A DNA stretch of 64,000 nt, from positions 1 to 64,000 of the forward strand of contig CAJWHT010000001.1 in the NCBI GenBank assembly GCA_913041495.1, in the 5' to 3' direction. Shown here piece after piece: positions 268 through 64,000 of this stretch. The notes below the pieces were generated by a model. It was not told the origin of the DNA. It did not search any database and worked only from the letters and a program-made list of their open reading frames with translations. Made by a program: the position numbers and the translations under genes. This stretch comes from an uncultured Desulfobacteraceae bacterium (GTDB taxonomy: Bacteria; Desulfobacterota; Desulfobacteria; Desulfobacterales; Desulfobacteraceae). Each line of letters starts with the position of its first letter. Position 1 is the first letter of the stretch.

Positions 268-301
268 TGAATACGGGACACAGCCCCCGCCAATACTTGA
301 G

Positions 302-952
302 GTGGCATCGGTAAACAAATCCTTTGCCCAGCCGGGGGCAGGCCCCCTCCAGGTCCTGACCGACATAAGGTTCCGTATTGACAGGGGACGGACAACCGCC
401 ATTGTGGGACATTCCGGGAGCGGTAAAACCACTTTGCTTTCCCTGATCGCCGGGCTTGACCGGCCGGACTCCGGGAACATTATCCTGGCGGGCAACGACC
501 TGAACGAAATGGACCAGGACCGGCTGGCCAGATACCGGGCCGCAAAGATCGGCATCATTTTTCAGCAGTTCCACCTCATGCCCCACCTGACCGCCGGTGA
601 AAACATCAGCCTGCCCCTTGAAATCCGGAAGGCGCAACAGATAGAGGAACGTACCCATGCCATGCTCCGCAAGGTGGGGTTGTGGGATCGCCGCAATCAC
701 CTGCCCGGTCAGTTGTCCGGCGGGGAATGCCAGCGGGTGGCCATTGCCAGGGCACTGGTGGTGACACCGGATCTCATCCTTGCGGACGAACCCACGGGGA
801 ACCTGGACACGGAAACCGGGCAGATCGTTGCCCGTCTGCTGTTCGATCTGGTGGAGCAGGAAGAAAAAAGCATGGTTCTGGTGACCCACAACCCTGAGCT
901 TGCCGCCCGCTGCCACCAGGTTCGGCATCTTGAAAAAGGGCGGCTGGTCTGA
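302..952 (+). CDS. ABC transporter ATP-binding protein (LolD/MacB-like)
   Basis: Walker A GHSGSGKTT, signature LSGGECQRVAIARAL, Walker B LILADEPTGNLD. True start may be upstream of 302, at or before the composition junction. Confidence 0.9.
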   Translation: MASVNKSFAQPGAGPLQVLTDIRFRIDRGRTTAIVGHSGSGKTTLLSLIAGLDRPDSGNIILAGNDLNEMDQDRLARYRAAKIGIIFQQFHLMPHLTAGENISLPLEIRKAQQIEERTHAMLRKVGLWDRRNHLPGQLSGGECQRVAIARALVVTPDLILADEPTGNLDTETGQIVARLLFDLVEQEEKSMVLVTHNPELAARCHQVRHLEKGRLV

Positions 953-21488: not shown

Positions 21489-22394
21489 TTGCCAAAGGGA
21501 CAGGACGTGGGACCTTCCGATTATTACAATACCGCCAAATTTTATCTGCGGCAGTTCAGCGGATTAAAAACCATTCCGTCCGTGGCCAACCGCCTGGTGA
21601 TCATGATTGACGAGGATACCTCGTCACTCAAGGATTTTGAGGAGATCATACGGGTGGATCCTACCCTGGTGCTGCGGCTTTTGAAACTGGTTAACTCTGC
21701 GTATTTTTCCCTGAGGACAAAGATCAAGGATATCTCAGAGGCCGTGGCTTATATCGGTGTGGACAACCTGAGAAATATGATCATTCTGGATGCATTGAAA
21801 AATCTGTTCCGGGGCACCTCCGAGTCCCAAGGGTTTTCCAGAAACCAGCTATGGCTGCATTGTTCGGTAACCAGCATCTGCTGCCAGATGATCGCCGAGC
21901 GGGTTTTTGTCCGTAAGGGGGAGGATGATTTCCTATGCGGAATACTTCACGATATCGGGCTTATTGTCGAAGACCAGGTGGCCCCGGGAAAGTTTAAATC
22001 CTTTTGTCAGACCTATGATCCCAAGACCCAGAATATCATCGCCCATGAGCGCGGGGTCATCGGAACGGACCATACCACCATCAGCTACCTGCTCACCCGG
22101 GAATGGGGGCTGTCATCAGATCTTAGCCAGGGGGTGAAGTGCCATCACAGGGCATTGGACCAGGTGGATCCGGCCAGCCATGCCGGTGTCCTTCAGATTG
22201 CGGAATACCTGGTTTCCAGGCTGGGATACGACGCCTTTCCGGAAACGGTGACGGGCATCATTTCCCCGCCGCTTATGGGGCATATCCGGGACAATATCAT
22301 GGGGTACCGGGCCATTATGGATGACCTGCCCCTTGAAATCCAGCGGGCCAAAGAGATCTATTCATTGGAGGAGGACGGGGATGGACTTCTTTGA
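21489..22394 (+). CDS. HDOD domain protein
   Basis: LPSVANRLV-type start, [55 protein letters not shown]. Confidence 0.88.
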
Positions 22395-24549
22395 TGACAT
22401 TGTCCGGGAGTCGGACGCGGATATCAACCAACGGTTTCTTGACACCCTGGGCAAATACCTTCCGGGCTACAGGTTCGGCGTTCTTTTGGGTGATGGCGGA
22501 CAACTGGGGGACTATCTTTCAAAATACCCCGTGGACAAAGGCGTTGACCGGAAGTTGCGCCATGCCGCAGACACGGGGCGTGTCTGCGATCATGGGGACA
22601 GCCGACTCATCACCCTGTCTCTTTCGAAGATGAATTCGGTCCTTATCTGCGAATTACCCAGGAACGCCCATACGAAGACAGCCGCCGCGATGCTTGAGGA
22701 CGCGGTTTGCCTCTGCCTTGAGCTTCACAAAAAAAATCGTCTTCTGGCCGAGGAAAAGGCCTTGCTGACCGCCCATAAACAGCAGCGGGACGGCAAAATA
22801 AAGGTCCTTGAAAAAAAATACCAGGAGATTTTAACCCGGAACCAGACCCAAAGCGCCGAATATTCCAGGCTGCTGAGGTCCGAGATCCGTCGCCGGACAT
22901 CCGAGCTGGAACGGTCCAACGCGGATCTGGCCCGGGCCAAGGCACGGGCGGAAGCCGCCAATATCGCCAAGGATAAGTTCCTTGCCAATATGAGCCACGA
23001 GATCCGGACCCCCATGAACGGGGTGGTGGGGATGGTGGAGATTCTTCTGGGGACCTCGCTTACCCAAGAGCAGCGCCGGTTTGCCCTGCTGATGAAAAAT
23101 TCATCCGAAGCCCTGCTCAACGTGATCAACGATATTTTGGATTATTCAAAAATTGAGGCGGGGAAGCTGGATATCGAGGAAATTGATTTTAACCTGAGGC
23201 AGGTGATGACGGAGATTTCTGATATCATTGCCATCTCCGTATATAAAAAGGGCCTGTCCTTTTCAAGTCTCATCGATGATGCGGTCCCCGTGATGCTCCG
23301 GGGGGACCCGGTCCGGCTCAGACAGATCATCATGAATTTCTGCGGCAATGCCGTCAAGTTCACCAAGGAGGGGGAGATCATGATCCGGGTCTCCCTTGAA
23401 TCGGCATCCCCGTCTAAGGCCGTGTTAAAATTTACCGTCTCCGATACCGGTATCGGTATTCCGGAAGACCGGATCGACGGATTGTTTCAATCCTTTTCCC
23501 AAATGGATTCCAGCATGACCCGTCACTATGGGGGCACAGGCCTTGGTCTGGCCATTTCAAAACAACTGGCCCGGTTGATGGGTGGCGATATCGGGGTCTC
23601 CTCAAAGGAAAACCAGGGCTCCACCTTCTGGTGCCGCCTGGGGTTTGAGCGGCAGCCCGAAGCCGCAGAGCAACCTTCGCCCAAAGATCTTGATACCGCC
23701 GCAAGTATTCGCGTGGACGGTCCCTGCCGCATTCTCCTGGCTGAAGATGATGAGATGAATCGTATTGTGGCGGAAAACCTGCTGGCACGGATGACCCTGA
23801 CGGACATCCAGGTGGCACAGAATGGCCTGGATGCTTTGGATATGTTTAAAGCCATGTCCTTCGATCTCGTGTTCATGGATGGTCAGATGCCGGTGATGAG
23901 CGGTCTTGACGCCACCGTTAGAATCCGTGAATATGAGCGGGAAAAAGGCCTTTCCCCCACCCCGGTCATTGCCCTCACCGCCCATGCCATGACCCATGAC
24001 CGGGAGGTTTTTTTGAACAGCGGTATGGATGAGTATCTGACCAAACCCCTGACCTTAAATACCTTGGCAACAGCCATAGAAAGGGTGCTTCCCGGCCGTG
24101 TGCACCGGGACGGGCCCAAAGAATCTGAAAACCAGAAAATGAAAATAAAAGAAGCATCCGTTTCTGCCGGCCCGGGCGGTAAAATCGTGGACATGGCCGA
24201 ACTCCGTGAGATCATGAACGGCAAAAAAGATTTGCTGGACAAGTGTATCCGGACCTTTGAAAAAAATTACAGGCAGGTTTTATCCGAGATCGTTCACTGC
24301 ATCTGCGTCATTGACCATGAGGGCCTGCGCAAGAATGCCCACCGGCTCAAGGGCATGTTCAAGTACCTGGCCGCAGGCCCCGCAGCAGACATGGCGTATA
24401 AACTCGAGCGGATAGGGGCGGAAAAGTCCATGGCGGAAAGAGCCCCCAGAGAAACCGGGAAGATTGTACAGCAACTGCACGATGCCTGTGCCGAAATTCT
24501 GGAACAGCTTCACACCGTATCGGATCAGGATGGGTTCAACGGCTCCTGA
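22381..24549 (+). CDS. Hybrid histidine kinase with receiver and HPt domains
   Basis: [60 protein letters not shown]-terminal HPt ([14 protein letters not shown]). Confidence 0.93.
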
Positions 24550-42668: not shown

Positions 42669-43844
42669 ATGGATATGAGAAATAAATTTTCGATTATTTC
42701 CCTGGTGATCGTATTTTTCTTTATCGGCACTGCCTGCGATAAGTTAGAAGAAAAAAAAGCCCCCCAGGCCCCGCCGCCTCCCCCTGAAGTCGATGTTTAT
42801 GAAACCCATGCTGAAGATATCCCCATCTACAACACGTTTGTGGGGCAGGTCTACGGAGTCAAGGATATTAACATACGGGCCCGGGTGCAGGGGTTTTTAA
42901 AGGGAATTCATTTTAAGGAAGGCTTCCCGGTGAAAGAAGGGGATTTGCTCTATGTCATCGAAAGCCAGCCCTTTGAGGCGGAGGTGGCGTCCAAGAGGGG
43001 ACTTCTGGCCGAAGCCAATACCAACCTGGTGAAGACCAAGCGGGAACTGGAACGCTACCGCCCCCTGGCGGAGCAAAAGGCCATTTCCCAGAGCGATCTT
43101 GACGGTGCCGTTGCCGCCTATGAAGCCGCCAAAGCATCGGTGGACGCTGCAAAGGCCAATCTGAGGGCGGCAAAGATCCAGATGGGGTATACGCGGATCT
43201 ACTCGCCCATTGACGGCATCATCGGAAAAACCCAGGCCAAGGTCGGGGACTTTGTGGGCCAAGACCCCAACCCCGTGATCCTGAATACAGTGTCCAATAC
43301 GACTTCCGTCCTGGTGGAGTTCTTTCTCACCGAAAGCATGTACTTGAGTATTGCAAGGCATATGGTGGCCAATAAGAGCGCGCGGGCGGAAATGACACAA
43401 AAGCCGGACATTCGGCTGATCCTGGCCGACGGGTATGAATATCCTCTTAAGGGTAAACCCAATTTCCTGGACCGCCAGATGGACCCGGCCACCGGCGCCA
43501 TCCTCTTCCAGGTATCTTTTCCCAATCCGGACAACCTGCTCCGGCCGGGGCAATTTGCCAAGGTGAAAATCAGGGTGGCGGTTGTCAAAGACGGCGTCCT
43601 GGTGCCCCAGCGCAGTGTCAGCGACCTCCAGGGCAGAAAACGGGTATTTGTGGTGGACGATCAGAATACCGTCCGGGAACGCCAGGTAACCCTGGGGCCG
43701 CCCGTAGACAATTTCTACCTGGTGAAAAAAGGGGTGGAGGCAGGCGAAAAAGTGGTCTACGAAGGCCTGCAGAAAGTGAGTGACGGCAGAACGGTTAAAG
43801 CGACACAAGTTCAGGTAGAACGCATAACACAGGATGAAAACTGA
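42669..43844 (+). CDS. RND efflux periplasmic adaptor (AcrA-like)
   Basis: Lipoprotein-like start; YGVKDINIRARVQGFLKGIHFKEGFPVKEGDLLYVIESQPFEAEV. Confidence 0.93.
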   Translation: MDMRNKFSIISLVIVFFFIGTACDKLEEKKAPQAPPPPPEVDVYETHAEDIPIYNTFVGQVYGVKDINIRARVQGFLKGIHFKEGFPVKEGDLLYVIESQPFEAEVASKRGLLAEANTNLVKTKRELERYRPLAEQKAISQSDLDGAVAAYEAAKASVDAAKANLRAAKIQMGYTRIYSPIDGIIGKTQAKVGDFVGQDPNPVILNTVSNTTSVLVEFFLTESMYLSIARHMVANKSARAEMTQKPDIRLILADGYEYPLKGKPNFLDRQMDPATGAILFQVSFPNPDNLLRPGQFAKVKIRVAVVKDGVLVPQRSVSDLQGRKRVFVVDDQNTVRERQVTLGPPVDNFYLVKKGVEAGEKVVYEGLQKVSDGRTVKATQVQVERITQDEN

Positions 43845-46800
43845 TGGGTGCTTTTTTTGTCAGGCGGCCCATTGTCGCCATGGTCATCGCTATTATTACG
43901 ATTATCATGGGCACCCTGTCCCTGCTGGGCCTGCCCACTGAGCAATATCCCACGATCACCCCCCCGATGGTCCAGGTCAGCGCCAGATATACCGGCGCCA
44001 ACGCCGTCAATGTGGAGCAGTCCGTGGCCACCCCGCTGGAGCAGCAGATCAACGGGGTGGACAACATGCTTTACATGAAGTCCACCAACTCCAATGACGG
44101 CAGCATGAGCATCAGTGTCTCCTTTGACATCGATACAGACCCGGATATGAATACGGTGTTTACCCAGAACCGGGTTGCAGCGGCCTCGGCCGGGTTGCCC
44201 GAGGAAGTGCAGCGCATGGGTGTGAGCACTAGTAAATCCATGCCCAATACCGTCATGCTGATCACCCTCACCGATGAAACCTCCCAATATGACCAGTACT
44301 TTTTGAACAACTATGCCCTGATCAATATCAAAGATGTGCTGGCCAGGATTCCCGGTGTCGGCCAGGTGACCGTCATGGGGGCCGCAGATTACTCCATGCG
44401 GATATGGATCAAACCGGACCGTCTGTCCCAGCTGGGGATGACCGTACCGGAAATCAGCGCTGCCATCCGCGCCCAGAGCGTCATCGTTCCCGGCGGAAAA
44501 TTCGGGGCTGAACCTGCCCCCAAGGGAACGGAGTTTACCTATACCGTCCGCCTTCCCGAACGCCTGCAGTCGGAAGAGGAGTTCGGGGAGATCGTTGTCC
44601 GGACCACGGAAGGCGGCGCCCAGGTAAAGCTTAAAGATATTGCACGGGTGGAACTCGGTGTCGAGTCCTACAATGTGCTCACCCGTCTGAACGGAACACC
44701 CTGTTCCATTATTGCCATTTACCAGGCACCGGGCTCCAATGCGGTAGAGGTGGCAGAGCAGCTTCTCGTGGCCATGGAAAACCTGAAGCATTCTTTTCCC
44801 AAGGGGATGCGGTATGACGTGTCCATGGATTCCACCCTGCCCATTACCAAGGGTATTCAAGAGATTGTAGAAACCCTGTTTATCGCCCTTGTTCTGGTGG
44901 TCTCCGTGGTATTTTTCTTTATCCAGGACTGGCGGGCAACCCTCATTCCCACCATTGCCATCCCCGTATCCCTGCTGGGGGCCTTCATGGCTTTCCCGCT
45001 GCTTGGGTTTACCGTAAATACCCTGTCGCTGCTCGGGCTGGTGCTGGCCATCGGTATCGTGGTGGACGATGCCATTGTGGTGGTGGAGGCGGTCCAGGTG
45101 AATATTGCCAAGGGTATGGACCCCAAAGAGGCCACCATCGCAGCCATGAAAGAGGTGACGGCACCTGTTATTGCCACCACCCTGGTGCTGATCGCCGTGT
45201 TCCTGCCTGTGGCGGTCATGGGGGGAATCACCGGGAAACTCTACCAGCAGTTCGCTCTGACCATTGTGGTGTCGGTCTGCTTTTCCTCCATTAACGCCCT
45301 GACCCTGAGTCCTGCCCTGTGCGGATTGATTCTCAAGGAACCCAAGCCCTATCGGGGACCCCTGGGATGGTTCTTCAAGATTTTCAACAAGATCTTTGAT
45401 GTCTCAACCACCGCCTATATGGGGGTGACCCGTATGCTGGCCAGAAAGTTGATCATCGGGGTGATTGTGATCATCGGGGTAAGCCTGGGCACTGGCTATG
45501 TGGGGAAACTACTTCCCACCGGATTCGTTCCGGAGGAGGATTTAGGGGTTATGTTTGTCAATGTCCAGCTGCCGGATGCCGCTTCTATTCAGCGGACCGA
45601 TGTGGTGATGAAAAAGGTGGAAAAAATGGTGGCCAGCTACGAAGAAGTGGATTTCGTCACCTCGGTGACCGGTTTTTCCGCCCTCTCCGGTGCCACAAGT
45701 TCAAACACCGGTTTCGTGTTCGTCTCCCTAAAGGACTGGGATGAAAGGAAAAGAACTGCCAAGGAGATCGTGGCTGCCATGGGCAGCGAGCTTTACATGG
45801 GCATCAAGGAGGCTCAGGTCTTTGCATTCAGCCCCCCGGCCATACCGGGCCTGGGCTCCGGCTCCGGCTTTTCATTAATGCTCCAGGACCGTGCGGGCAA
45901 TACACCGGAATACCTGGGTCACCAGGCGTCAATCTTTATCCAGGCGGCCATGAAGCGGCCTGAGATCGCAATGGCCTACACCACCTACAGTCCCGGCGTA
46001 CCCCAGCGGCTCATCGACGTGGACCGGGACAAGGCGCTGAAGGCCGGGGTGCCTTTGGATGATATGTATACCACCATCGGCGCTTTTTTAGGCGGTTCTT
46101 ACGTAAACGACTTCAACCGGTTCGGCAGGCTTTACAGGGCCTATATCCAGGCAGAACCCGAGTACCGCCAGGGGGCGGAGCAGATCAACCTCTTCTTTGT
46201 TAAAAACAGGGACGGGGACAGCGTACCGCTTTCCGCCTTCGTTAAAGTGAAAGAGGTATACGGCCCGGACTACATCAACCGCTTTAACCTCATGCGGGCG
46301 GCATCCATCTCAGGCGGCGCCGCCAAGGGATACACCTCGGCCCAGGCCATGGCAGCCCTGGAGGAGGTGGCGGACCAGGTATTGCCCGATGACATGACCT
46401 ATGCCTGGGCCGACATGTCCTACCAGGAAAAAAAGGCGGCCGGCACAGGGTCCAAGGTCTTTATATTTTCACTGGTATTCGTCTTTCTTATCCTGGCGGC
46501 CCAGTACGAGAGCTGGTCCCTTCCCTTCAGCATCCTGCTGGGAACACCCTTTGCCGTGCTGGGGGCGCTGGGCCTGCTGTTCCTGGCAAGGATGGGCGAC
46601 TTAAGTTACGAAAACAACCTGTTTGCCCAGATTTCCCTGGTCATGCTCATCGGTATGGCGGCCAAGAACGCCATCCTGATCGTGGAGTTTGCCAACATCA
46701 AGTTCAAGGAGGGCATGAGCCTGTTTGAGGCTGCCGTTGAGTCGGCGAAGCTTCGGTTCCGTCCCATTCTCATGACTGCCTTTTCATTTATCCTGGGGAT

Positions 46801-47002
46801 TCTGCCCCTGGTGATCGCCACCGGGGCAGGTGCCGAGGCCAGAAAGGTTATGGGCATGGCCCTTTTGGGAGGCATGGCGCTTGCCACTTTTATGGGGGTG
46901 TTTTTCTATCCCATGCTTTTTGTACTCATCGGCAAGCTTGGGCGGTATGAAAAAAAACGGGATCTGTCTAACATGAAGCAAGAAAAGAGGGCTGAAATAT
47001 GA
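43844..47002 (+). CDS. RND efflux permease (AcrB/HAE1 family)
   Basis: 1052 aa; RRPIVAMVIAIITIIMGTLSLLGLPTEQYPTITPPMVQVSARYTGANA; GIVVDDAIVVVEAV. Confidence 0.95.
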   Translation: MGAFFVRRPIVAMVIAIITIIMGTLSLLGLPTEQYPTITPPMVQVSARYTGANAVNVEQSVATPLEQQINGVDNMLYMKSTNSNDGSMSISVSFDIDTDPDMNTVFTQNRVAAASAGLPEEVQRMGVSTSKSMPNTVMLITLTDETSQYDQYFLNNYALINIKDVLARIPGVGQVTVMGAADYSMRIWIKPDRLSQLGMTVPEISAAIRAQSVIVPGGKFGAEPAPKGTEFTYTVRLPERLQSEEEFGEIVVRTTEGGAQVKLKDIARVELGVESYNVLTRLNGTPCSIIAIYQAPGSNAVEVAEQLLVAMENLKHSFPKGMRYDVSMDSTLPITKGIQEIVETLFIALVLVVSVVFFFIQDWRATLIPTIAIPVSLLGAFMAFPLLGFTVNTLSLLGLVLAIGIVVDDAIVVVEAVQVNIAKGMDPKEATIAAMKEVTAPVIATTLVLIAVFLPVAVMGGITGKLYQQFALTIVVSVCFSSINALTLSPALCGLILKEPKPYRGPLGWFFKIFNKIFDVSTTAYMGVTRMLARKLIIGVIVIIGVSLGTGYVGKLLPTGFVPEEDLGVMFVNVQLPDAASIQRTDVVMKKVEKMVASYEEVDFVTSVTGFSALSGATSSNTGFVFVSLKDWDERKRTAKEIVAAMGSELYMGIKEAQVFAFSPPAIPGLGSGSGFSLMLQDRAGNTPEYLGHQASIFIQAAMKRPEIAMAYTTYSPGVPQRLIDVDRDKALKAGVPLDDMYTTIGAFLGGSYVNDFNRFGRLYRAYIQAEPEYRQGAEQINLFFVKNRDGDSVPLSAFVKVKEVYGPDYINRFNLMRAASISGGAAKGYTSAQAMAALEEVADQVLPDDMTYAWADMSYQEKKAAGTGSKVFIFSLVFVFLILAAQYESWSLPFSILLGTPFAVLGALGLLFLARMGDLSYENNLFAQISLVMLIGMAAKNAILIVEFANIKFKEGMSLFEAAVESAKLRFRPILMTAFSFILGILPLVIATGAGAEARKVMGMALLGGMALATFMGVFFYPMLFVLIGKLGRYEKKRDLSNMKQEKRAEI

Positions 47003-48441
47003 AACCATTGAAAACTGCCTGCACCCTGTTGGCCTGTATACTGATCATGGCAGGGTGTAATGCCGTCGGACCCGATTTTAAGCCGCCTGAGATGGCGTCC
47101 CCCAAGGCCTACCGGTTTGTTACCCAGGAGGCCAAGGCCGTGGAGGATCTTAAATGGTGGGAATTGTTTGACGACCCCGTGCTCCACGACCTGGTGGCTG
47201 CGGCGCTGGAAAACAACCGGGATGTGAAAACCGCCCTGAGCCGGATTGAAGAAGCCCGTGCCACTTACGGATTTACCCGGGCCGACGAGTACCCCACGGT
47301 TGATCTGCAAGGCTACGGGTACGCCGGTAATTTTTCAGGGTCCCGGTCAAAAACCGATGACACCAGTTTCTATCTGACGCCGACACTGTCCTGGGAGGTG
47401 GATTTCTGGGGGCGGTACAAGCGGGCCAGCGCTGCTGCAAAGGCTGATATCCTGGCATCGGAATTCGGGGCCAGAACCATTCAGGTCAGTCTCATTGCCG
47501 ATGTGGCCTCTGCGTATTATACGCTTCTGGACTACCGCCAGCGCCTGGAGATGTCAAAGGAAACCCTGGCGTCCCGTCTCAAGAGTTTGGGTATTATCAG
47601 GCAGCGGTTCGACCAGGGGATCATTCCGGAAATAGATTTGAACCAGGCCCAGATTCAAAAGGAGATTGCAGCGGGGGCCATTCCCCAGTACGAGCGTCTG
47701 ATCGCAAAAACAGAAAATACGTTGAGCCTGCTTTCCGGGGAGCTTCCCGGCAGTATCCGCACCGGCAGCACCCTGGCGGACCAGCCCCTGCCGCCCTTTG
47801 TACCTGATACCATGCCGTCCACCCTTCTTCAGCGGCGGCCGGACATCCGGCAGTCCCTGGCGCAGCTTCACGCCAGTAACGAAAACATCGGGGTGGCCGT
47901 GGCCCAGCGGTTTCCGACACTCAGTCTGGCCGCTGCCCTGGGCGCGTCCTATTCGGACTTCTCCCACGTGATCGTCCGGGGCGGGGTATATAACAGCACG
48001 GCAACCCTCGTGGCGCCTTTGTTCAATTTTAAGAAAAATCTGCGCCGGGTGGAAGTTGCCGAAATCCAGACGGAGCAGGCCCTGCTGAGCTATGAAGAAA
48101 CAGTGCTCACCGCTTTTCGGGAGGTGGAAGACGCCCTGGTGGAGGTGGATACCTATCGCCGGGAAAGCGAGGCTGCCAGCCGTAAAGTCATTGCGGCGGA
48201 AAATGCGGCGAAGCTTTCCTTTGAACGCTATGACAAGGGCGTCAGTTCCTATCTGGAGGTACTGGATTCCGAGCGGACCCTGTTTTCCGCCAAGTTGGAA
48301 TACTCCGAAATCAAACAGCTCTTTTTCAACGCCTACGTCAATTTGTACAAAGCCCTGGGCGGCGGATGGCTCAGTCCTGAGAAACCTGCCTCGGACACGG
48401 GGGACCGGAAGGCTGTAGCGGCTGAAACCCTGTCAGAATAA
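46999..48441 (+). CDS. NodT-family outer membrane efflux lipoprotein
   Basis: Lipobox LIMAGCNAVGPDFKPPEM; KWWELFDDPVLHDLVAAALENNRDVKTALSRIEEARA. Confidence 0.94.
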   Translation: MKPLKTACTLLACILIMAGCNAVGPDFKPPEMASPKAYRFVTQEAKAVEDLKWWELFDDPVLHDLVAAALENNRDVKTALSRIEEARATYGFTRADEYPTVDLQGYGYAGNFSGSRSKTDDTSFYLTPTLSWEVDFWGRYKRASAAAKADILASEFGARTIQVSLIADVASAYYTLLDYRQRLEMSKETLASRLKSLGIIRQRFDQGIIPEIDLNQAQIQKEIAAGAIPQYERLIAKTENTLSLLSGELPGSIRTGSTLADQPLPPFVPDTMPSTLLQRRPDIRQSLAQLHASNENIGVAVAQRFPTLSLAAALGASYSDFSHVIVRGGVYNSTATLVAPLFNFKKNLRRVEVAEIQTEQALLSYEETVLTAFREVEDALVEVDTYRRESEAASRKVIAAENAAKLSFERYDKGVSSYLEVLDSERTLFSAKLEYSEIKQLFFNAYVNLYKALGGGWLSPEKPASDTGDRKAVAAETLSE

Positions 48442-48448
48442 CCCCGGC

Positions 48449-50695
48449 GTGGCTGACGCGTCATTGCCGCAACTCATCCTGTTTATTGCCAGGCACCTTG
48501 CCGCGCGTCCAAAGCTGCTGCTGGTGTGTCTTGTCCTTGTCACCATCCTTATGGCCGGATCTGCCCGCGGGGTCCGGCCGGATTATTCCGGGGTGTCCTT
48601 TGATGTTCAGGAATCAGAATCCGCAAGGGCTTACCATGAATTTAGCTCAGCTTTCGGCGGGGATGCCTACCTTCTTCTTGCCTTTGCCCACGGCAGCCGT
48701 ATCACCGATCCCCACGTGAAAAATAGCCTTGCCGCTGCCGGCAAAGAAATTGCGGCCATGGCGGGGATTCTCAGGGTCTCGGACCTGGCCCGCCTGTCCA
48801 GCATCCGTCTGCCCGGCGGAACCGGGATGGACGAATGGACAAAGGCGTCCGTCGAACAGATGCGCCGGTTTATTCCGGGCATGTCACAGCTTTTATCGGC
48901 GGACCAACGGATATTGGGGATGGTGATCCGGATCGACAACGAACGCCTGAACGGATTCCGGCTTGAATCCCGCATGGCGGAGATAAAGGCCGTCGTTCAT
49001 CGGTTTTTTCCGGACTGCGACCGGGTATATGCCGCCGGTATCCCTTTGCTTCGGGCGGCTTTTGAACGGTATAACCTGGAGAACGCCGCTATTTTCGGAG
49101 GGCTGGGCCTGGTGTTCGGTGCCGTGATTGCTTTTCTACTGTTTAGAACCGTCTGGGCGGCAGGCCTTGTGGTGGTGACGGCCCTGGTGTCGCTGATATG
49201 GATGGCAGGGATCATGGGGCTGGCCGGCATCCGGATCAATATGGCATCCGGCCTGAGTTTCGGCTTTGTGCTGATCGCCTCATGCACCACGGTGTTTCAT
49301 ATACTCATTGCGTACATTGACGAACGGCCTGACGGTCCCAATCCCTTTGGGACGGCTTTGGCCAAAGTCTTAAAACCCTGTTTCATGTGTGCAATGACCA
49401 CGGCCACAGGGTTTTTCAGCCTGATGGTCAGCCCTGTACCCATGGTGCGCCAGGCAGGTCTTCTCATCGGTGCCGGGGTAATGCTTTCCTTTGTATTGGC
49501 ACTGCCGGTGACGGCCTTTGTGCTGCCGTATATCTTCAGCACCGCCAAACCTGTGCCATCCGTTCGGAAACGTCATATGAAAAAATCCTCCCGGCTGGCT
49601 GCCGTACTGAAGGTTCCGGGATTCAGCACCCCGGGGACCACCCTTATTCTCGGGCTGCTGTTCTGTATTATCGCTGCAGCGGGAATTCCTGAAATCGAGC
49701 GGACCCGCCACCTGAGCCTGCCGATGCTGGGACATTCCCGGGCGGCGGAGGATGTGGCTTTTGTCCGGGACCACCTGTCCACCGGATACTCTGTTTCCCT
49801 TGTCCTTTCAGATTCCGGGAAAACCTTTGAAGGCCGGCCGTTCTGGTACGAATTGCTGCGGTTGGAAAAGCAGTTGAAACAACTTCCCGGAGTTGACGAT
49901 GTCAGCGGCATCACGTCACTGGTGTTTAAAACCGCCCTGGGCTTTTCCCAGGCCGGCATACGTCCGGAACTGGTGTTTACCGGGTTGAAAAAAGAGGCAA
50001 AATACCGTGAGATGCTTGCCCCGTTTCTAAGCGGTGACGGACGGAAACTCAGGCTTGAAGTGCATATCCAGGATCTTTCCTCCCGCCAGATTGAAGGCCT
50101 TTTGGAGGAAATAATCGGCACTGCCCGTTCGGTGATGACAGGGAACATCAGGGCGGATCTGGCCGGGCAGATGATTTACCTGCGTTCCCAGACCCAGGGG
50201 CTTGTGGCTGCCCAGGTGAACACCCTGGGAACGGCCCTTTTCGTGATTACGGGGATGATGATTCTTCAACTGGGTTCCCTACGCCTGGGGCTTTTGAGCC
50301 TGATCCCCAACCTTTTGCCTCTGTTCACCATTTTCGGGATCATGGGGTGGGGTGGCATTGCCCTGGATCCTTTAACCGTTTTTGCTGCCGTGATTTCCTT
50401 CGGCCTCTCCGTGGACGATTCCATCCACTACCTGACGGCGGTAAAAGAGGGGCTGGCGGCGGGGCAACCCATGGGGGCGGCCCTTGAAACCGCCTACGAC
50501 CGGACAGCGAAGGCCCTCATCGCCACCACCGCCGTTCTTTTTCTGTCTTGTGCCGGACTGATGCTGTCCCAGGTCTCCCATGTGTTTTACCTGGGCCTGC
50601 TGGTGGCATCCGCCTCCCTGGCAGCCCTGGCCGGAGACCTGATGGTGTTGCCGGCCCTTGTCCGTAAAACCGCCCTCTGGTATAAGCTGGGATGA
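48449..50695 (+). CDS. MMPL/RND-superfamily transporter (HAE3-like)
   Basis: GTG start; ~12 TM; second-half motif AVISFGLSVDDSIHYLTAVKEGLAAG. Confidence 0.88.
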   Translation: MADASLPQLILFIARHLAARPKLLLVCLVLVTILMAGSARGVRPDYSGVSFDVQESESARAYHEFSSAFGGDAYLLLAFAHGSRITDPHVKNSLAAAGKEIAAMAGILRVSDLARLSSIRLPGGTGMDEWTKASVEQMRRFIPGMSQLLSADQRILGMVIRIDNERLNGFRLESRMAEIKAVVHRFFPDCDRVYAAGIPLLRAAFERYNLENAAIFGGLGLVFGAVIAFLLFRTVWAAGLVVVTALVSLIWMAGIMGLAGIRINMASGLSFGFVLIASCTTVFHILIAYIDERPDGPNPFGTALAKVLKPCFMCAMTTATGFFSLMVSPVPMVRQAGLLIGAGVMLSFVLALPVTAFVLPYIFSTAKPVPSVRKRHMKKSSRLAAVLKVPGFSTPGTTLILGLLFCIIAAAGIPEIERTRHLSLPMLGHSRAAEDVAFVRDHLSTGYSVSLVLSDSGKTFEGRPFWYELLRLEKQLKQLPGVDDVSGITSLVFKTALGFSQAGIRPELVFTGLKKEAKYREMLAPFLSGDGRKLRLEVHIQDLSSRQIEGLLEEIIGTARSVMTGNIRADLAGQMIYLRSQTQGLVAAQVNTLGTALFVITGMMILQLGSLRLGLLSLIPNLLPLFTIFGIMGWGGIALDPLTVFAAVISFGLSVDDSIHYLTAVKEGLAAGQPMGAALETAYDRTAKALIATTAVLFLSCAGLMLSQVSHVFYLGLLVASASLAALAGDLMVLPALVRKTALWYKLG

Positions 50696-51255
50696 CGTAT
50701 AAACAACGCAGCAAGGACAAGGGAACCTCAGGGGCAAATATGGTCAGTTTTTTCAATGCCTGGATCGCGGCACAAAACAGTTATGGATTCCGGCATTCCG
50801 GCAGTCTTGGGGCACCGCCCCGGGACGTATGGGCGGTGATGACGGATTTCATGTCGTGGCCAACGTGGTGGCAGGGCCTGCGGGAGATCCGGCGCCTGGA
50901 TGAAGGGGCCCTTGCCAGGGGAAGCTGTATCCGGTCTTCCTGGCAGGGGAATTTGCCCTACAGCCTGACTTTTGACGCCGTGATCCGGGACATTCGCCCG
51001 GAACAATCCCTTTCCTTTTTCGTGACCGGAGACCTGAGCGGCGGCGGCCGCTGCCGTCTGTTGCCGGTGCCGGAGGGAACCTGGCTTGAATTTACCTGGC
51101 AGGTTGCCCCCACCCGCCTCTGGTTTCGAATGAGCGCCCCCATTGTAAGATCCGTATTCAAAGAAAACCATGACCGAATTATGGCGTCCGGGGGCAGGGG
51201 GCTTGCCTCGGAATTGTTTTCACGCCGTATGGAAATTGAGGTGCCCCATGACTGA
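50692..51255 (+). CDS. SRPBCC family protein
   Basis: APPRDVWAVMTDFMSWPTWWQGLREIRRLDEGALARGS; ATGA overlap with upstream gene. Confidence 0.75.
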   Translation: MTYKQRSKDKGTSGANMVSFFNAWIAAQNSYGFRHSGSLGAPPRDVWAVMTDFMSWPTWWQGLREIRRLDEGALARGSCIRSSWQGNLPYSLTFDAVIRDIRPEQSLSFFVTGDLSGGGRCRLLPVPEGTWLEFTWQVAPTRLWFRMSAPIVRSVFKENHDRIMASGGRGLASELFSRRMEIEVPHD

Positions 51256-55512: not shown

Positions 55513-57882
55513 ATGAAAAAAAATATCGTCTTCATGTTTTCCGGCCAGGGCTCCCAGTTCTTCCACATGGGCCGGGATCTTTACGAATCAGAACCTGTGT
55601 TCAGGCGCGCCATGGATAGTATGGACACAATTGCCGGCGATATGACGGGGCGGTCCGTTGTAAAAGAGATCTATGACCCCGGCAAAGGCAAGTGGGATAG
55701 GTTTGATGACATCTCCCTGTCTCATCCTGCCATTTTCATGGTCCAGGCAGCCCTGGTCCGGACCCTGGCGGAAAGGGGCATCGTTCCGGATGCGGTGATG
55801 GGGACCAGCCTCGGGGAGTTCGTGGGGGCGGCACTTTACGGTGTGATGGATTTTGAGACTGGATTTAAAAAGGTGATCCGCCAGCCCATCGTATTCAAGG
55901 ACGACCTTCGTCCCGGGGGCATGATTGCCGTCATGGACAGCCCTGATATTTACTATGACACCCCCGTGCTGCGGGAAAATTGTGAGATTTCAGCCATCAA
56001 TCTGGATGCCCATTTTGTGGTATCAGCCCAGGGAGAATCCCTGGAACGGGTGCAACGGTATCTGACGGAAACCGGTATCAATCATCTTGCCCTGCCGGTG
56101 GCATATGCCTTCCATTGCGCCCACCTGGAAAAAATCCGGGAGAAGTTTATCTCCCTGTATTCCGGCGTGCCGTATGATTCTCCCGGGGTGGCCTTTTACT
56201 CTTGTACCGGGGCCGGAAGAGTCCACGACATTGATCCCGGGTTCTTCTGGCGGGTGATACGGCAGCCTATCCGGTTCAGGGATACGTTCATGGGGGTGGC
56301 ATCCGAGGGGCCTTGCATATTTGTGGACCTGGGACCGTCGGGCACCCTGGCCACCTTTGCCAAGTATAATCTGCCGAAAGACAGTCCATCGGAAATTTGG
56401 CCCATCCTGACCCCTTTCGGCGGTGAGAGGGAAAATTTAAACCGGGTTCTGGCAGCGCTACCCCGAAGCGAATCAAAATCCGCGCCCGGTAAAGAAAAGC
56501 AAATGGCTTCACCACCAAATATCCGGTTAAAAATTGGGGGGCAGGACTTAGGCAACCCGGACTTTAAACAACAGTTCAGCCTTACATATGCCTGCCTGGC
56601 CGGGGGGATGTGCCGGGGTATTTCTTCCCCCGCCTTGGTCACACGGATGGGGAATGCGGGGATGATGGGATTCTTAGGCGCCCACGGTTTGCCTATGGAT
56701 GAGGTTGACCGGCATATCTGCCAGGTCATCCGCGGCCTGGACGAAGGCCGGGCGTTTGGTGTGAATCTGCCGGCGGGACCGGATGAGGACGACCTGGTGG
56801 ACCTGTGTTTAAAAAGAAAGGTGTCCTGTATTGAGGCCTCCGGGTTTACAGGCGTTACCCCGGCCTTGGTCAGGTACAAGATTGCCGGTATGGGAGACGG
56901 TCCGGCCGGCGCCGGCGGGCATCCCACCCGGATTATGGTCAAGTTGTCACGGCCGGAGGTGGCAGCCGATTTTCTTCGTCCCCCCGGCAACCGGATTCTG
57001 GAAAACCTTCTGGCCTCCGGACGGATATCATCTGCCCAGGCTAAGTGGGCGAAGGGGGGTCCCGTGGCCGACGCCGTCTGTGTGGCCGCGGACGGCGGTG
57101 GTCCCACCCAACGGGGAACCACCGCCGTTCTGCTGCCTGCCATAATCCGGCTGCGGGACCGGATGAAAAAGGAATACGGGTACGAAAAAAAGGTGTTTGT
57201 GGGGACTGCCGGCGGCATCGGCACCCCGGCAGCGGCTGTGTCGGCCTTTGTCCTGGGAGCGGATTTCGTTCTCACCGGTTCCATCAACCAGTGCACCCCG
57301 GAGTCCGGAACCAGCAACAGGGTGAAGGACATGCTCCAGAAGATCAATGTACAGGATACGGCCTATGCCCCGGCTTCACAGGGATTTGAAATGGGGGCGG
57401 CGGTACAGGTGTTGTCCAGGGGGACCTTTTTTCCGGCCAGGGCCAATCGCCTTTTTTCCTTGTACCAACACCATGATTCACTGGCGGATATCCCTGAGGA
57501 CCTGCTGGGAAAAATCTGCGAAAAATATTTTGATCTGAGCCTGGAAAGAGTCTATGATGCGGGCAATTCGTTTGCTTCCGGTGCGGATCCGGGCTTGCCC
57601 GGGCAAGCCTTTCCAAAGCGCGGAATGGCTCAATTCTTTAAAGGGTATCTGGACAATGCCTTCTCTTTGGCACTTGCCGGGGAGCAAACCTGTGGGGTGA
57701 ACTATCAGGTTTATTGCGGCCCTTGCCTGGGAGCATTCAATCAGTGGGCGGCCGGAACAGAACTTGAGAACTGGCAGGCCCGCCATGTGGATGATATGAA
57801 TATGCGGATAATGGATGCGGCGGCGGATTTGTTGACCCAGCGATTATACTCCCTGGCCAATACGGACCCGGCCAAAAGTTGA
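55513..57882 (+). CDS. Acyltransferase (AT)-PfaD enoylreductase fusion, divergent copy 1
   Basis: AT region MFSGQGSQFFHMGRDL, GTSLGEF, YAFH; PfaD region FVLGADFVLTGSINQCTPESGTSNRVKDML...VQVLSRGTFFPARANRLFSLYQHHDSLADIP. Confidence 0.9.
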   Translation: MKKNIVFMFSGQGSQFFHMGRDLYESEPVFRRAMDSMDTIAGDMTGRSVVKEIYDPGKGKWDRFDDISLSHPAIFMVQAALVRTLAERGIVPDAVMGTSLGEFVGAALYGVMDFETGFKKVIRQPIVFKDDLRPGGMIAVMDSPDIYYDTPVLRENCEISAINLDAHFVVSAQGESLERVQRYLTETGINHLALPVAYAFHCAHLEKIREKFISLYSGVPYDSPGVAFYSCTGAGRVHDIDPGFFWRVIRQPIRFRDTFMGVASEGPCIFVDLGPSGTLATFAKYNLPKDSPSEIWPILTPFGGERENLNRVLAALPRSESKSAPGKEKQMASPPNIRLKIGGQDLGNPDFKQQFSLTYACLAGGMCRGISSPALVTRMGNAGMMGFLGAHGLPMDEVDRHICQVIRGLDEGRAFGVNLPAGPDEDDLVDLCLKRKVSCIEASGFTGVTPALVRYKIAGMGDGPAGAGGHPTRIMVKLSRPEVAADFLRPPGNRILENLLASGRISSAQAKWAKGGPVADAVCVAADGGGPTQRGTTAVLLPAIIRLRDRMKKEYGYEKKVFVGTAGGIGTPAAAVSAFVLGADFVLTGSINQCTPESGTSNRVKDMLQKINVQDTAYAPASQGFEMGAAVQVLSRGTFFPARANRLFSLYQHHDSLADIPEDLLGKICEKYFDLSLERVYDAGNSFASGADPGLPGQAFPKRGMAQFFKGYLDNAFSLALAGEQTCGVNYQVYCGPCLGAFNQWAAGTELENWQARHVDDMNMRIMDAAADLLTQRLYSLANTDPAKS

Positions 57883-61812: not shown

Positions 61813-64000
61813 ATGAGACGCTTATCACCAAAAAAAATTGCTTTTGTCTATTCAGGCATAGGTCCGCAATACAAATATATGGGCAAAGGACTGACCCGCG
61901 AAGACGAATTCCGGAGGATCATTGACACGTGGAACCGGAAAACAAAACGCATTGCCGATCTTCTGGGTCCGCAAGGTTGCGACAAAGGGACGGTTCCGCT
62001 GGCAAGCCCTGATTCAATCCTGTCGATTCCGCGCACATTATCGCTGCAAATCGGGCTGTCGGCCCTTCTGGAAAAATGGGGTATTCTGCCGGATGGGGTT
62101 ATCGGACACAGTGTGGGGGAATTTGCTGCGTCCTGCATCTCAGGCGTCCTGGCACCAGATGATCTTGTCCATGTTGTTGGGGCCCATTGCGGTTTGTTTC
62201 TGCAATCGGGATCAGAGGGGGGCATGGCCTATGTGGGGCTACCCCGGGACCAGGTCGCAGACCTGATAGTTCCCTACGGCGATGCGGTGGGGATCGCTGC
62301 GGTCAACGGTCCCTCGGCAACGGTGATTTCCGGTGATAAAGCGGTTTTTAAAAAGATCTCACAGGTGCTGGAAGAGCAGGATGCGTTTTTCAGGGTGTTG
62401 AACGTGGACATCCCTTTTCACAGCCCAAAGATAGATGCATCACAGATGGCGATAGAATCGGTGTCGCCGATGACACCCGGAATCCCTCTCTATTCTTCGA
62501 TGCGCGGGCGCCTGGGCCGTGTCAGCGATTTTGATGCCGCCTACTGGAGGGACCACCCCCAGAAACCCGTGCTGTTTAAGGCCGGCATAGAAGCCATGCT
62601 GGATGACGGCTACACCGTATTCGTTGAAATCGGCCCCCACCCGGTCCATTCCGCAGATATTGAGAATATCATCCAGGCAAAAGGGATGACCGGTGACTGC
62701 CGGGTAATTCACACCCTGGAGCGGGATAAAGAAGACAAAGCGGCTTTGATGGCAGCGCTGGCGCAGTTGGCAGCGGCCGGCTGTGCACCCGAAAAGGATC
62801 TGCTGAATCCGGAGGACCGGCAGCGCTTTGATGCCTGCGCCAATGAGATCCGGCAACCTGTGCCCGGCGGCCAGGCAGCCGAACCGCCCCGAACCCAGAC
62901 GGAGAAAATGATTGCATCGGTATGGGCCGAGGTACTCCGGTGCGGGGACATCGGCATTCGGGACAATTATTTCGATATGGGGGGAAATTCCCTCCAGGCC
63001 ATGCGGATCATATCAAGAGTCAACGGGCTGTTTGACGCCAGCATTTCTGTCCGGACATTGTTCAAATATCCAACGGTTGAGGGGCTTGCCCGTATTGCCG
63101 GTGAACCAAAGGCAGGGGGGGATGACGAGATTCCCCCGGTGCCCAGAGAAGATGAGCATTTCGCCTTGAGCCTTGCCCAGGAGCGTCTCTGGTTCCTTGC
63201 GCAGCTTATCTCCGACAGCCCGTTGTACAATATATCCACAGCCGTACACCTGGCAGGCCCCCTGGATGTGGACGCGCTCCGGATGGCCTTGGATGAGATG
63301 GTGAGACGTCATGAGACCTTGCGGACTGGTATTATCTCAAAAGATGGGCAGCCCTCCTTGCGGATTCTGCCTTCGGCCACAAGGGTCCGGCTTGAGGTCA
63401 CGGATATACGGGATCTGGATGACGACCGGAAAGAGGACGAAATTCAGCGGCTCGTAAGCGATGCTGCGGCGGTTTCTTTTGATCTGACCGATCCCCCGCT
63501 TTTCAGGGCCGGCCTTATCCAAACAGAGGTGGATGATCATATCCTGCTCATGACCGTCCATCATATTGTATCCGACGGATGGTCCCTGGGGGTGATCAAC
63601 CGGGAAATTTCTGCATTATACAATTCATTTGCGGGCAAAACGCCCTTAGGGCTTTCAGACCTGCCGGTCCAATACGTTGATTTTGCCTCCTGGCAGCGGA
63701 AACGGCTGACGGCAGATCACCTTGATGCACAATTGAATTATTGGAAAGATTCCCTTGAGAATCTCCCGCTGCTGGATCTTCATACCGATTATCCCAGGCC
63801 TTCCGTGGCGTCCTACAAGGGGGGGCAGATTCCTGTCCGAATTCCTGCCGGTCTGCTGACGTCCCTTAAGCGGCTGGGACATCAATCCGGCGCCTCCTTG
63901 TTCATGACGCTGTTTGCGGGCTTTTCAGCCCTTCTTTGCCGGTACACCGGTCAGGACGATATCGCCGTCGGGGCACCGGTGGCAGGCCGGACCCACAGGG
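61813..64000 (+). CDS. PKS/NRPS protein, domain order AT-carrier-condensation, partial at right edge
   Basis: Open frame from ATG 61813 to window end (absent from the ORF track because there is no stop). AT GHSVGEF and IPFHS; carrier DNYFDMGGNSLQAM; condensation LSLAQERLWFL and HHIVSDG. Confidence 0.93.
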   Translation, partial: MRRLSPKKIAFVYSGIGPQYKYMGKGLTREDEFRRIIDTWNRKTKRIADLLGPQGCDKGTVPLASPDSILSIPRTLSLQIGLSALLEKWGILPDGVIGHSVGEFAASCISGVLAPDDLVHVVGAHCGLFLQSGSEGGMAYVGLPRDQVADLIVPYGDAVGIAAVNGPSATVISGDKAVFKKISQVLEEQDAFFRVLNVDIPFHSPKIDASQMAIESVSPMTPGIPLYSSMRGRLGRVSDFDAAYWRDHPQKPVLFKAGIEAMLDDGYTVFVEIGPHPVHSADIENIIQAKGMTGDCRVIHTLERDKEDKAALMAALAQLAAAGCAPEKDLLNPEDRQRFDACANEIRQPVPGGQAAEPPRTQTEKMIASVWAEVLRCGDIGIRDNYFDMGGNSLQAMRIISRVNGLFDASISVRTLFKYPTVEGLARIAGEPKAGGDDEIPPVPREDEHFALSLAQERLWFLAQLISDSPLYNISTAVHLAGPLDVDALRMALDEMVRRHETLRTGIISKDGQPSLRILPSATRVRLEVTDIRDLDDDRKEDEIQRLVSDAAAVSFDLTDPPLFRAGLIQTEVDDHILLMTVHHIVSDGWSLGVINREISALYNSFAGKTPLGLSDLPVQYVDFASWQRKRLTADHLDAQLNYWKDSLENLPLLDLHTDYPRPSVASYKGGQIPVRIPAGLLTSLKRLGHQSGASLFMTLFAGFSALLCRYTGQDDIAVGAPVAGRTHR

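Follow-up and report, generated by a model that had tools for sequence, protein, structure and literature searches.

A predicted PksD-type acyl hydrolase fused directly to a PfaD-type enoylreductase that lacks the catalytic histidine

Introduction

Two neighbouring genes in a 64,000-nucleotide stretch of DNA from an uncultured Desulfobacteraceae bacterium (the window) each encode an acyltransferase-fold domain followed by a PfaD-type enoylreductase (ER), as assigned with Pfam and NCBIfam. The two proteins differ in key motifs, the first (copy 1) reading GTSLGEF, KVIRQPIVF and CVAADGGGPTQRG where the second (copy 2) reads GHSLGEY, LVQERGRLM and CVEADSGGHTDMG. All of these motifs are present as the original prediction for this locus had described them, and the bounds of the copy 1 reading frame were confirmed exactly (Table 1). 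That prediction held that copy 1 has lost key residues in both domains, and proposed either a proofreading acyl hydrolase (AH) or a monocarboxylic starter acyltransferase (AT), combined with an inactive or repurposed ER, or else a partner subunit of copy 2. Is copy 1 a decayed relative of copy 2, or a different protein in which the unusual residues have a meaning of their own? Here, we address this question for each half of the protein, for the junction between them and for the genomic surroundings. The His-less ER of copy 1 is called ER0 throughout.

Table 1. Features of the copy 1 and copy 2 genes and of the downstream NRPS (window coordinates).
Feature	Position	Strand	Remarks and basis
AH-ER0 gene (copy 1, P0001), 789 aa	55513..57882	+	RBS-like AAAGGA upstream of ATG
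PksD-type acyl hydrolase domain, residues 1-312	55513..56448	+	PksD 8avz match, Foldseek, AH clade
AH-specific C-terminal extension, residues about 287-312			inside the AH domain of copy 1
Nucleophile Ser99 in GTSLGEF, with Thr98 where malonyl ATs carry His	55807..55809	+	alignment
Gln124 replacing the malonyl-binding Arg	55882..55884	+	alignment; PMC11775670
Phe200-His201 of the catalytic motif	56110..56115	+	alignment
AH-to-ER linker, residues 313-343, holding no AT domain	56449..56541	+	model: disordered
PfaD-type trans-ER domain lacking the catalytic His (ER0), residues 344-776	56542..57840	+	TIGR02814; DfnA 4cw5 best match
Degenerate motif AADGGGPTQ (A525, P531, Q533) replacing EADSGGHTD	57085..57111	+	alignment
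AT-ER gene (copy 2, P0002), 761 aa	57899..60184	+	separated by 16 bp from the AH-ER0 stop; RBS-like AAGGA
Start of giant NRPS, AT-PCP-C-A-PCP...	61813..64000, on to contig base 76197	+	domain matches

Results

The N-terminal half of copy 1 resembles the acyl hydrolase PksD

According to the structural study of Fage et al. (2024; PMC11775670), AHs differ from ATs in three respects. They have Gln in place of the malonyl-binding Arg, with Gln or another non-Arg residue at this position being diagnostic, they usually lack a His directly in front of the nucleophile, and they carry a C-terminal extension that is absent from trans-ATs; the mutation Q124A inactivated PksD. In copy 1, the predicted exchange of Arg for Gln is real and not caused by an alignment shift, as Gln124 aligns ungapped to Gln124 of PksD. 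Within our own alignment, 77 of 84 AHs have Gln in this column and all 12 ATs have Arg, and the residue preceding the nucleophile Ser is His in every AT but in none of the AHs, 18 of which have Thr. Both the Arg and the GHSLGE motif of malonyl-CoA ATs of the FabD/PksC type are thus lacking in copy 1 (Gln124, GTSLGEF) and found in copy 2. The Ser-His dyad of the GxSLGE and xFH motifs is present (Ser99, His201), in line with the prediction that the nucleophile Ser and the downstream FH (F200-H201) are kept. Copy 1 also has the C-terminal extension: its alignment to PksD is ungapped up to residue 312, and the model contains a helix at residues 305-315.

The best PDB match of this half is PksD itself (8AVZ, E = 1.1e-79, residues 2-312, ungapped), the next chain following at E = 2.3e-35. 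The two proteins share 41% identity over 311 ungapped residues and are identical at Q12, Q15, D62, F64, D65, I67, H71, S99, Q124, M137, V196, Y198, F200 and H201, even the numbering of the catalytic and pocket residues (Ser99, Gln124, Phe200, His201) being the same. The AlphaFold2 model of the AH half has a pLDDT of about 96 and superimposes on PksD in Foldseek with a TM score of 0.97 and an rmsd of 1.4 Å. In a tree of 96 rows, copy 1 falls into the AH clade (84 rows, SH-aLRT 100) on a branch of 0.98 (median 0.39) and copy 2 into the AT clade.

Given the PksD match, the active-site residues, the clade and the fold, the Arg-to-Gln and GHS-to-GTS exchanges are signatures of an existing AH family and not of local decay. 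We infer that this half is very probably a trans-acting AH of the PksD/PedC type, its hydrolytic activity being a strong prediction, and the proofreading hydrolase of the original prediction is strongly supported by sequence, fold, active-site residues and tree alike. The wording that copy 1 "has lost" residues is misleading for its AT-like half, where the two copies belong to two clades.

Copy 2 is a malonyl-type AT-ER protein

Copy 2 combines a malonyl-type AT (Ser89, Arg114, Phe192-His193), whose PDB matches are DisD, PksE and PksC, with an ER that carries the intact motif EADSGGHTD (His506). Its nearest relative is an AH-AT-ER protein of Candidatus Magnetocorallium (L083). The two genes are probably co-transcribed. 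We considered and rejected a recent tandem duplication of a single AT-ER gene, as the AT halves belong to different clades and a sister pairing of the ERs was marginally rejected as well (p-AU 0.046). Since the AT halves separate in this way, copy 1 did not arise by decay of a duplicated copy 2.

The ER of copy 1 lacks two flavin-site residues

ER0 belongs to the PfaD family (TIGR02814, 516.8 bits with a cut-off of 449), and DfnA (4cw5) is its best structural match in the PDB. In the degenerate motif, the column of the catalytic His, which is His in 45 of 54 other trans-ERs and in all 19 PUFA-type ERs, is occupied by Pro531, and that of the FMN-bonding Glu by Ala525. For FabK, PfaD and PUFA ERs, the His of the GGH motif has been proposed to be catalytic, and the FMN ring and ribitol are hydrogen-bonded by the motif Glu (PMC13311796). 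The loss of the His had been predicted; that of the Glu comes in addition. FMN contacts are kept at G364, M366, N418, S443, K477, G529, G567, G568, G589 and S590, which include the phosphate glycines (G529, G567, G568, G589) and the Met of motif I (M366).

What loss of the His can do to a trans-ER is illustrated by the H198V mutant of GbnE, in which reduction was abolished while the protein was still folded and FMN-bound and still suppressed module iteration (PMC10921412). Extrapolating from this mutant to natural His-less ERs, we have good reason to expect that ER0 does not reduce enoyl thioesters, and the inactive or repurposed ER of the original prediction is well supported by the replacement of both residues. 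Model confidence is low at the loop DGGGPTQR of ER0, which says nothing about inactivation, as the intact loop GGHTDMG of copy 2 is modelled equally poorly under the same conditions.

An inactive ER might have no role at all and be a functionless, decaying leftover from a duplication or an AT/AH-ER fusion, attached to a normally working AH. The long branch of ER0 in the ER tree (1.47, median 0.3) would fit such a passenger, as would the loss of both flavin-site residues and the low match to the consensus in the active loop and in the lid (conservation 0.46). However, ER0 keeps 61 of the 63 near-invariant columns (those conserved in 95% or more of the other rows), departing at two, and is therefore not a shattered pseudogene. 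Its reading frame is intact with a coding-type GC3 of 0.66, equal to that of the AH half, its barrel is strongly predicted in the AlphaFold2 model, and nine other sampled proteins have likewise kept an ER without the His. A passenger is rather unlikely in the light of these data, and the chance that ER0 has a non-catalytic role instead is somewhat better than even.

These nine trans-ERs, out of 54 others, include MlnA and proteins of Paenibacillus and Streptomyces (L064, L078, L075, L127, L113, L133, L084, L085 and MlnA) and are scattered over AT-ER and AH-AT-ER proteins. The His is replaced by N, P, S, Y or L, in some of them the Glu is gone too, and as a group they are more diverged along the whole domain. 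A grouping of ER0 with them is without support in the ER tree, in which long branches leave the copy 1 ER without a supported place. MlnA has a solved structure. We found no activity assay of any of these nine proteins in the literature, the titles and abstracts on MlnA being free of activity data.

Alternatively, ER0 could still be a working reductase in which another acid/base or a water replaces the His, as might hold for MlnA. Such an enzyme would account for the retention of the FMN phosphate glycines, Asn418, Ser443, Lys477 and Met366, and for the existence of MlnA and eight further ERs without the His, but it is improbable given that the single exchange H198V abolished the activity of GbnE and that ER0 lacks the FMN-bonding Glu too.

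Genomic context

The NRPS that starts downstream of copy 2 comprises at least 4795 residues and runs off the contig end. The AT of its AT-PCP loading unit (GHSVGEF, VVGAHCGLFLQ) is likewise without the carboxylate-binding Arg, which suggests a monocarboxylic starter. Elsewhere in the 5.77 Mb genome, there is no AT on three contigs (C14, C62 and C221) that carry at least seven PKS ketosynthases, those on C14 being accompanied by RhiE-like linkers, four tandem ACPs and an HMG-CoA-synthase-like gene. No ketosynthase domain was found on contig C1, which carries copies 1 and 2, so that what ties them to the PKS contigs is the shared genome and not contiguity. Together, these genes fit a trans-AT PKS/NRPS hybrid that is fed by copy 2. 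The genome is most likely one of the Desulfobacterales, as two genomes of its order encode proteins identical to ones in named Desulfobacterales records (L028 = L065, L027 = L077).

Loss of the Arg also occurs in starter-loading ATs. The AT-like half of copy 1 could accordingly be the monocarboxylic starter AT of the original prediction and no hydrolase, and an NRPS with a loading AT of its own does lie downstream. This function is very unlikely, however, as the NRPS is already served by its own Arg-less AT, and the PksD-specific pocket, motif and C-terminal extension of copy 1, together with its place in the AH clade, disfavour it.

The genome contains a second, stand-alone PksD-like AH of 341 aa (G000:C47, about 21539-22564; L012:1168-2193, minus strand) with the motif GASLGEY, Asn in the Arg column and PksD as best PDB match (1.1e-47). 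It is directly followed by a 255-aa protein that resembles an Sfp-type phosphopantetheinyl transferase in sequence. A contig-cut, PfaA-like PKS fragment (L024, G000:C279) combines two ketosynthases, a FabK-like stretch and an AT in one frame of 1884 aa. Upstream of copies 1 and 2, the region 42669-51255 of the window is a likely efflux operon. Its large ORFs are classed as RND-type from nothing but their size and order; it also encodes an MMPL-family protein (48449-50695) and a polyketide-cyclase/lipid-transport-like protein, and these genes could export the same product.

A direct AH-ER fusion

Fage et al. (PMC11775670) list AT-AH, AH-AT, AT-ER and AH-AT-ER as the known fusions and state that it is ATs, not AHs, that pair with a C-terminal ER. 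Copy 1 is an exception to this statement, and the direct AH-ER0 fusion is its unusual part. The AT that stands between AH and ER in AH-AT-ER tridomain proteins is absent from copy 1, which has a 31-residue linker only. The original prediction, which had the AH and the inactive ER among its options, had not recognised this architecture.

To see how unusual the fusion is, we screened the best 80 of 568 AH-bearing named genome loci, 11 further genomes with an AH out of 391 of its order and 11 plasmid loci, and within this sample of about 100 related loci there was no second direct AH-ER fusion. All screened AHs are stand-alone or followed by an AT (AH-AT or AH-AT-ER). The full-length copy 1 protein as query gave no match in the genome collection, whereas the AH alignment did find loci. 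On the Burkholderia gladioli BSR3 plasmid bgla_4p (L157), an AH, a PfaD-type ER and a FabD-type AT are encoded by three separate adjacent genes in that order, an arrangement from which an AH-ER gene fusion could plausibly have started.

That the assembly dropped an AT between the AH and the ER of an AH-AT-ER gene is scarcely credible: the junction is known from a single draft assembly (328 contigs) and has no second example among the screened loci, but the linker is clean and in frame, GC3 is similar on both of its sides, and repeat collapse does not explain a junction next to ERs that are only 46% identical between copies 1 and 2.

Discussion

The reading that combines these results is an AH fused to a catalytically dead ER0, which serves as a non-catalytic docking or dimerising module, beside a functional malonyl-AT-ER protein. 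We give this reading as a whole about an even chance. The AH would clear stalled carrier proteins of the trans-AT PKS/NRPS: Ser99 would accept the short acyl groups stuck there, chiefly acetyl, and the resulting acyl-enzyme would then be hydrolysed, with Gln124 shaping the pocket against malonyl. Copy 2 would load malonyl and reduce. ER0, which retains its fold and most FMN contacts but should not reduce enoyl thioesters, would most likely act as a binding module that either docks on the modules or ACPs recognised by trans-ERs or pairs with the active ER of copy 2. Hydrolase, transferase and reductase could so act together, as in AH-AT-ER tridomain proteins.

The binding role is proposed on two precedents, the GbnE mutant and the scERb/scERc heterodimer, which is known among the dimerising TIM-barrel ERs (PMC13311796). 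They point only weakly to docking or heterodimerisation, the latter corresponding to the partner subunit of copy 2 in the original prediction. In its most specific form, an ER0:ER heterodimer with copy 2, or docking of ER0 on ER-recognised modules, would turn the dead reductase into an adaptor that brings an editing hydrolase to chosen carrier proteins, in a split and asymmetric AH-AT-ER system; we regard this as doubtful. Against the combined reading, the long branch and the poorly conserved lid of ER0 also fit relaxed constraint and drift. Copy 1 has naturally lost the same catalytic His that was mutated in GbnE, where a dead trans-ER still controlled module behaviour. A natural protein is thereby available for testing a non-catalytic role of a trans-ER, and its own chain offers the readout, hydrolysis of acyl-ACP.

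Among known systems, PksD, the trans-acting AH of bacillaene biosynthesis, is like copy 1 in its catalytic and pocket residues, C-terminal extension and fold, but is a stand-alone protein and not fused to an ER. AT-ER didomain proteins (PksE, DfnA, DisD) have the two-domain layout and the ER family in common with copy 1, whose N-terminal domain is instead an AH and whose ER lacks the His and the Glu. The GbnE H198V protein misses the same His as ER0; it is, however, a laboratory mutant without AH fusion, whereas ER0 also lacks the Glu and has Pro as the replacement. Natural PfaD-type ERs without the His are those of MlnA and of the Paenibacillus AH-AT-ER proteins L064 and L078, the latter two sharing with ER0 the changes of Glu to Ala and His to Pro. 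Unlike ER0, the ERs of L064 and L078 come after an AT, as does that of MlnA. AH-AT-ER tridomain proteins (OzmM, GdsB, L027, L028, L031 and L083) resemble copy 1 in their N-terminal AH and C-terminal PfaD ER and differ from it in the AT between the two. AH-ER0 and AT-ER together supply the same domain set, split over two genes and with two ERs, one of them His-less, and the pair is best read as a split relative of the AH-AT-ER tridomain protein.
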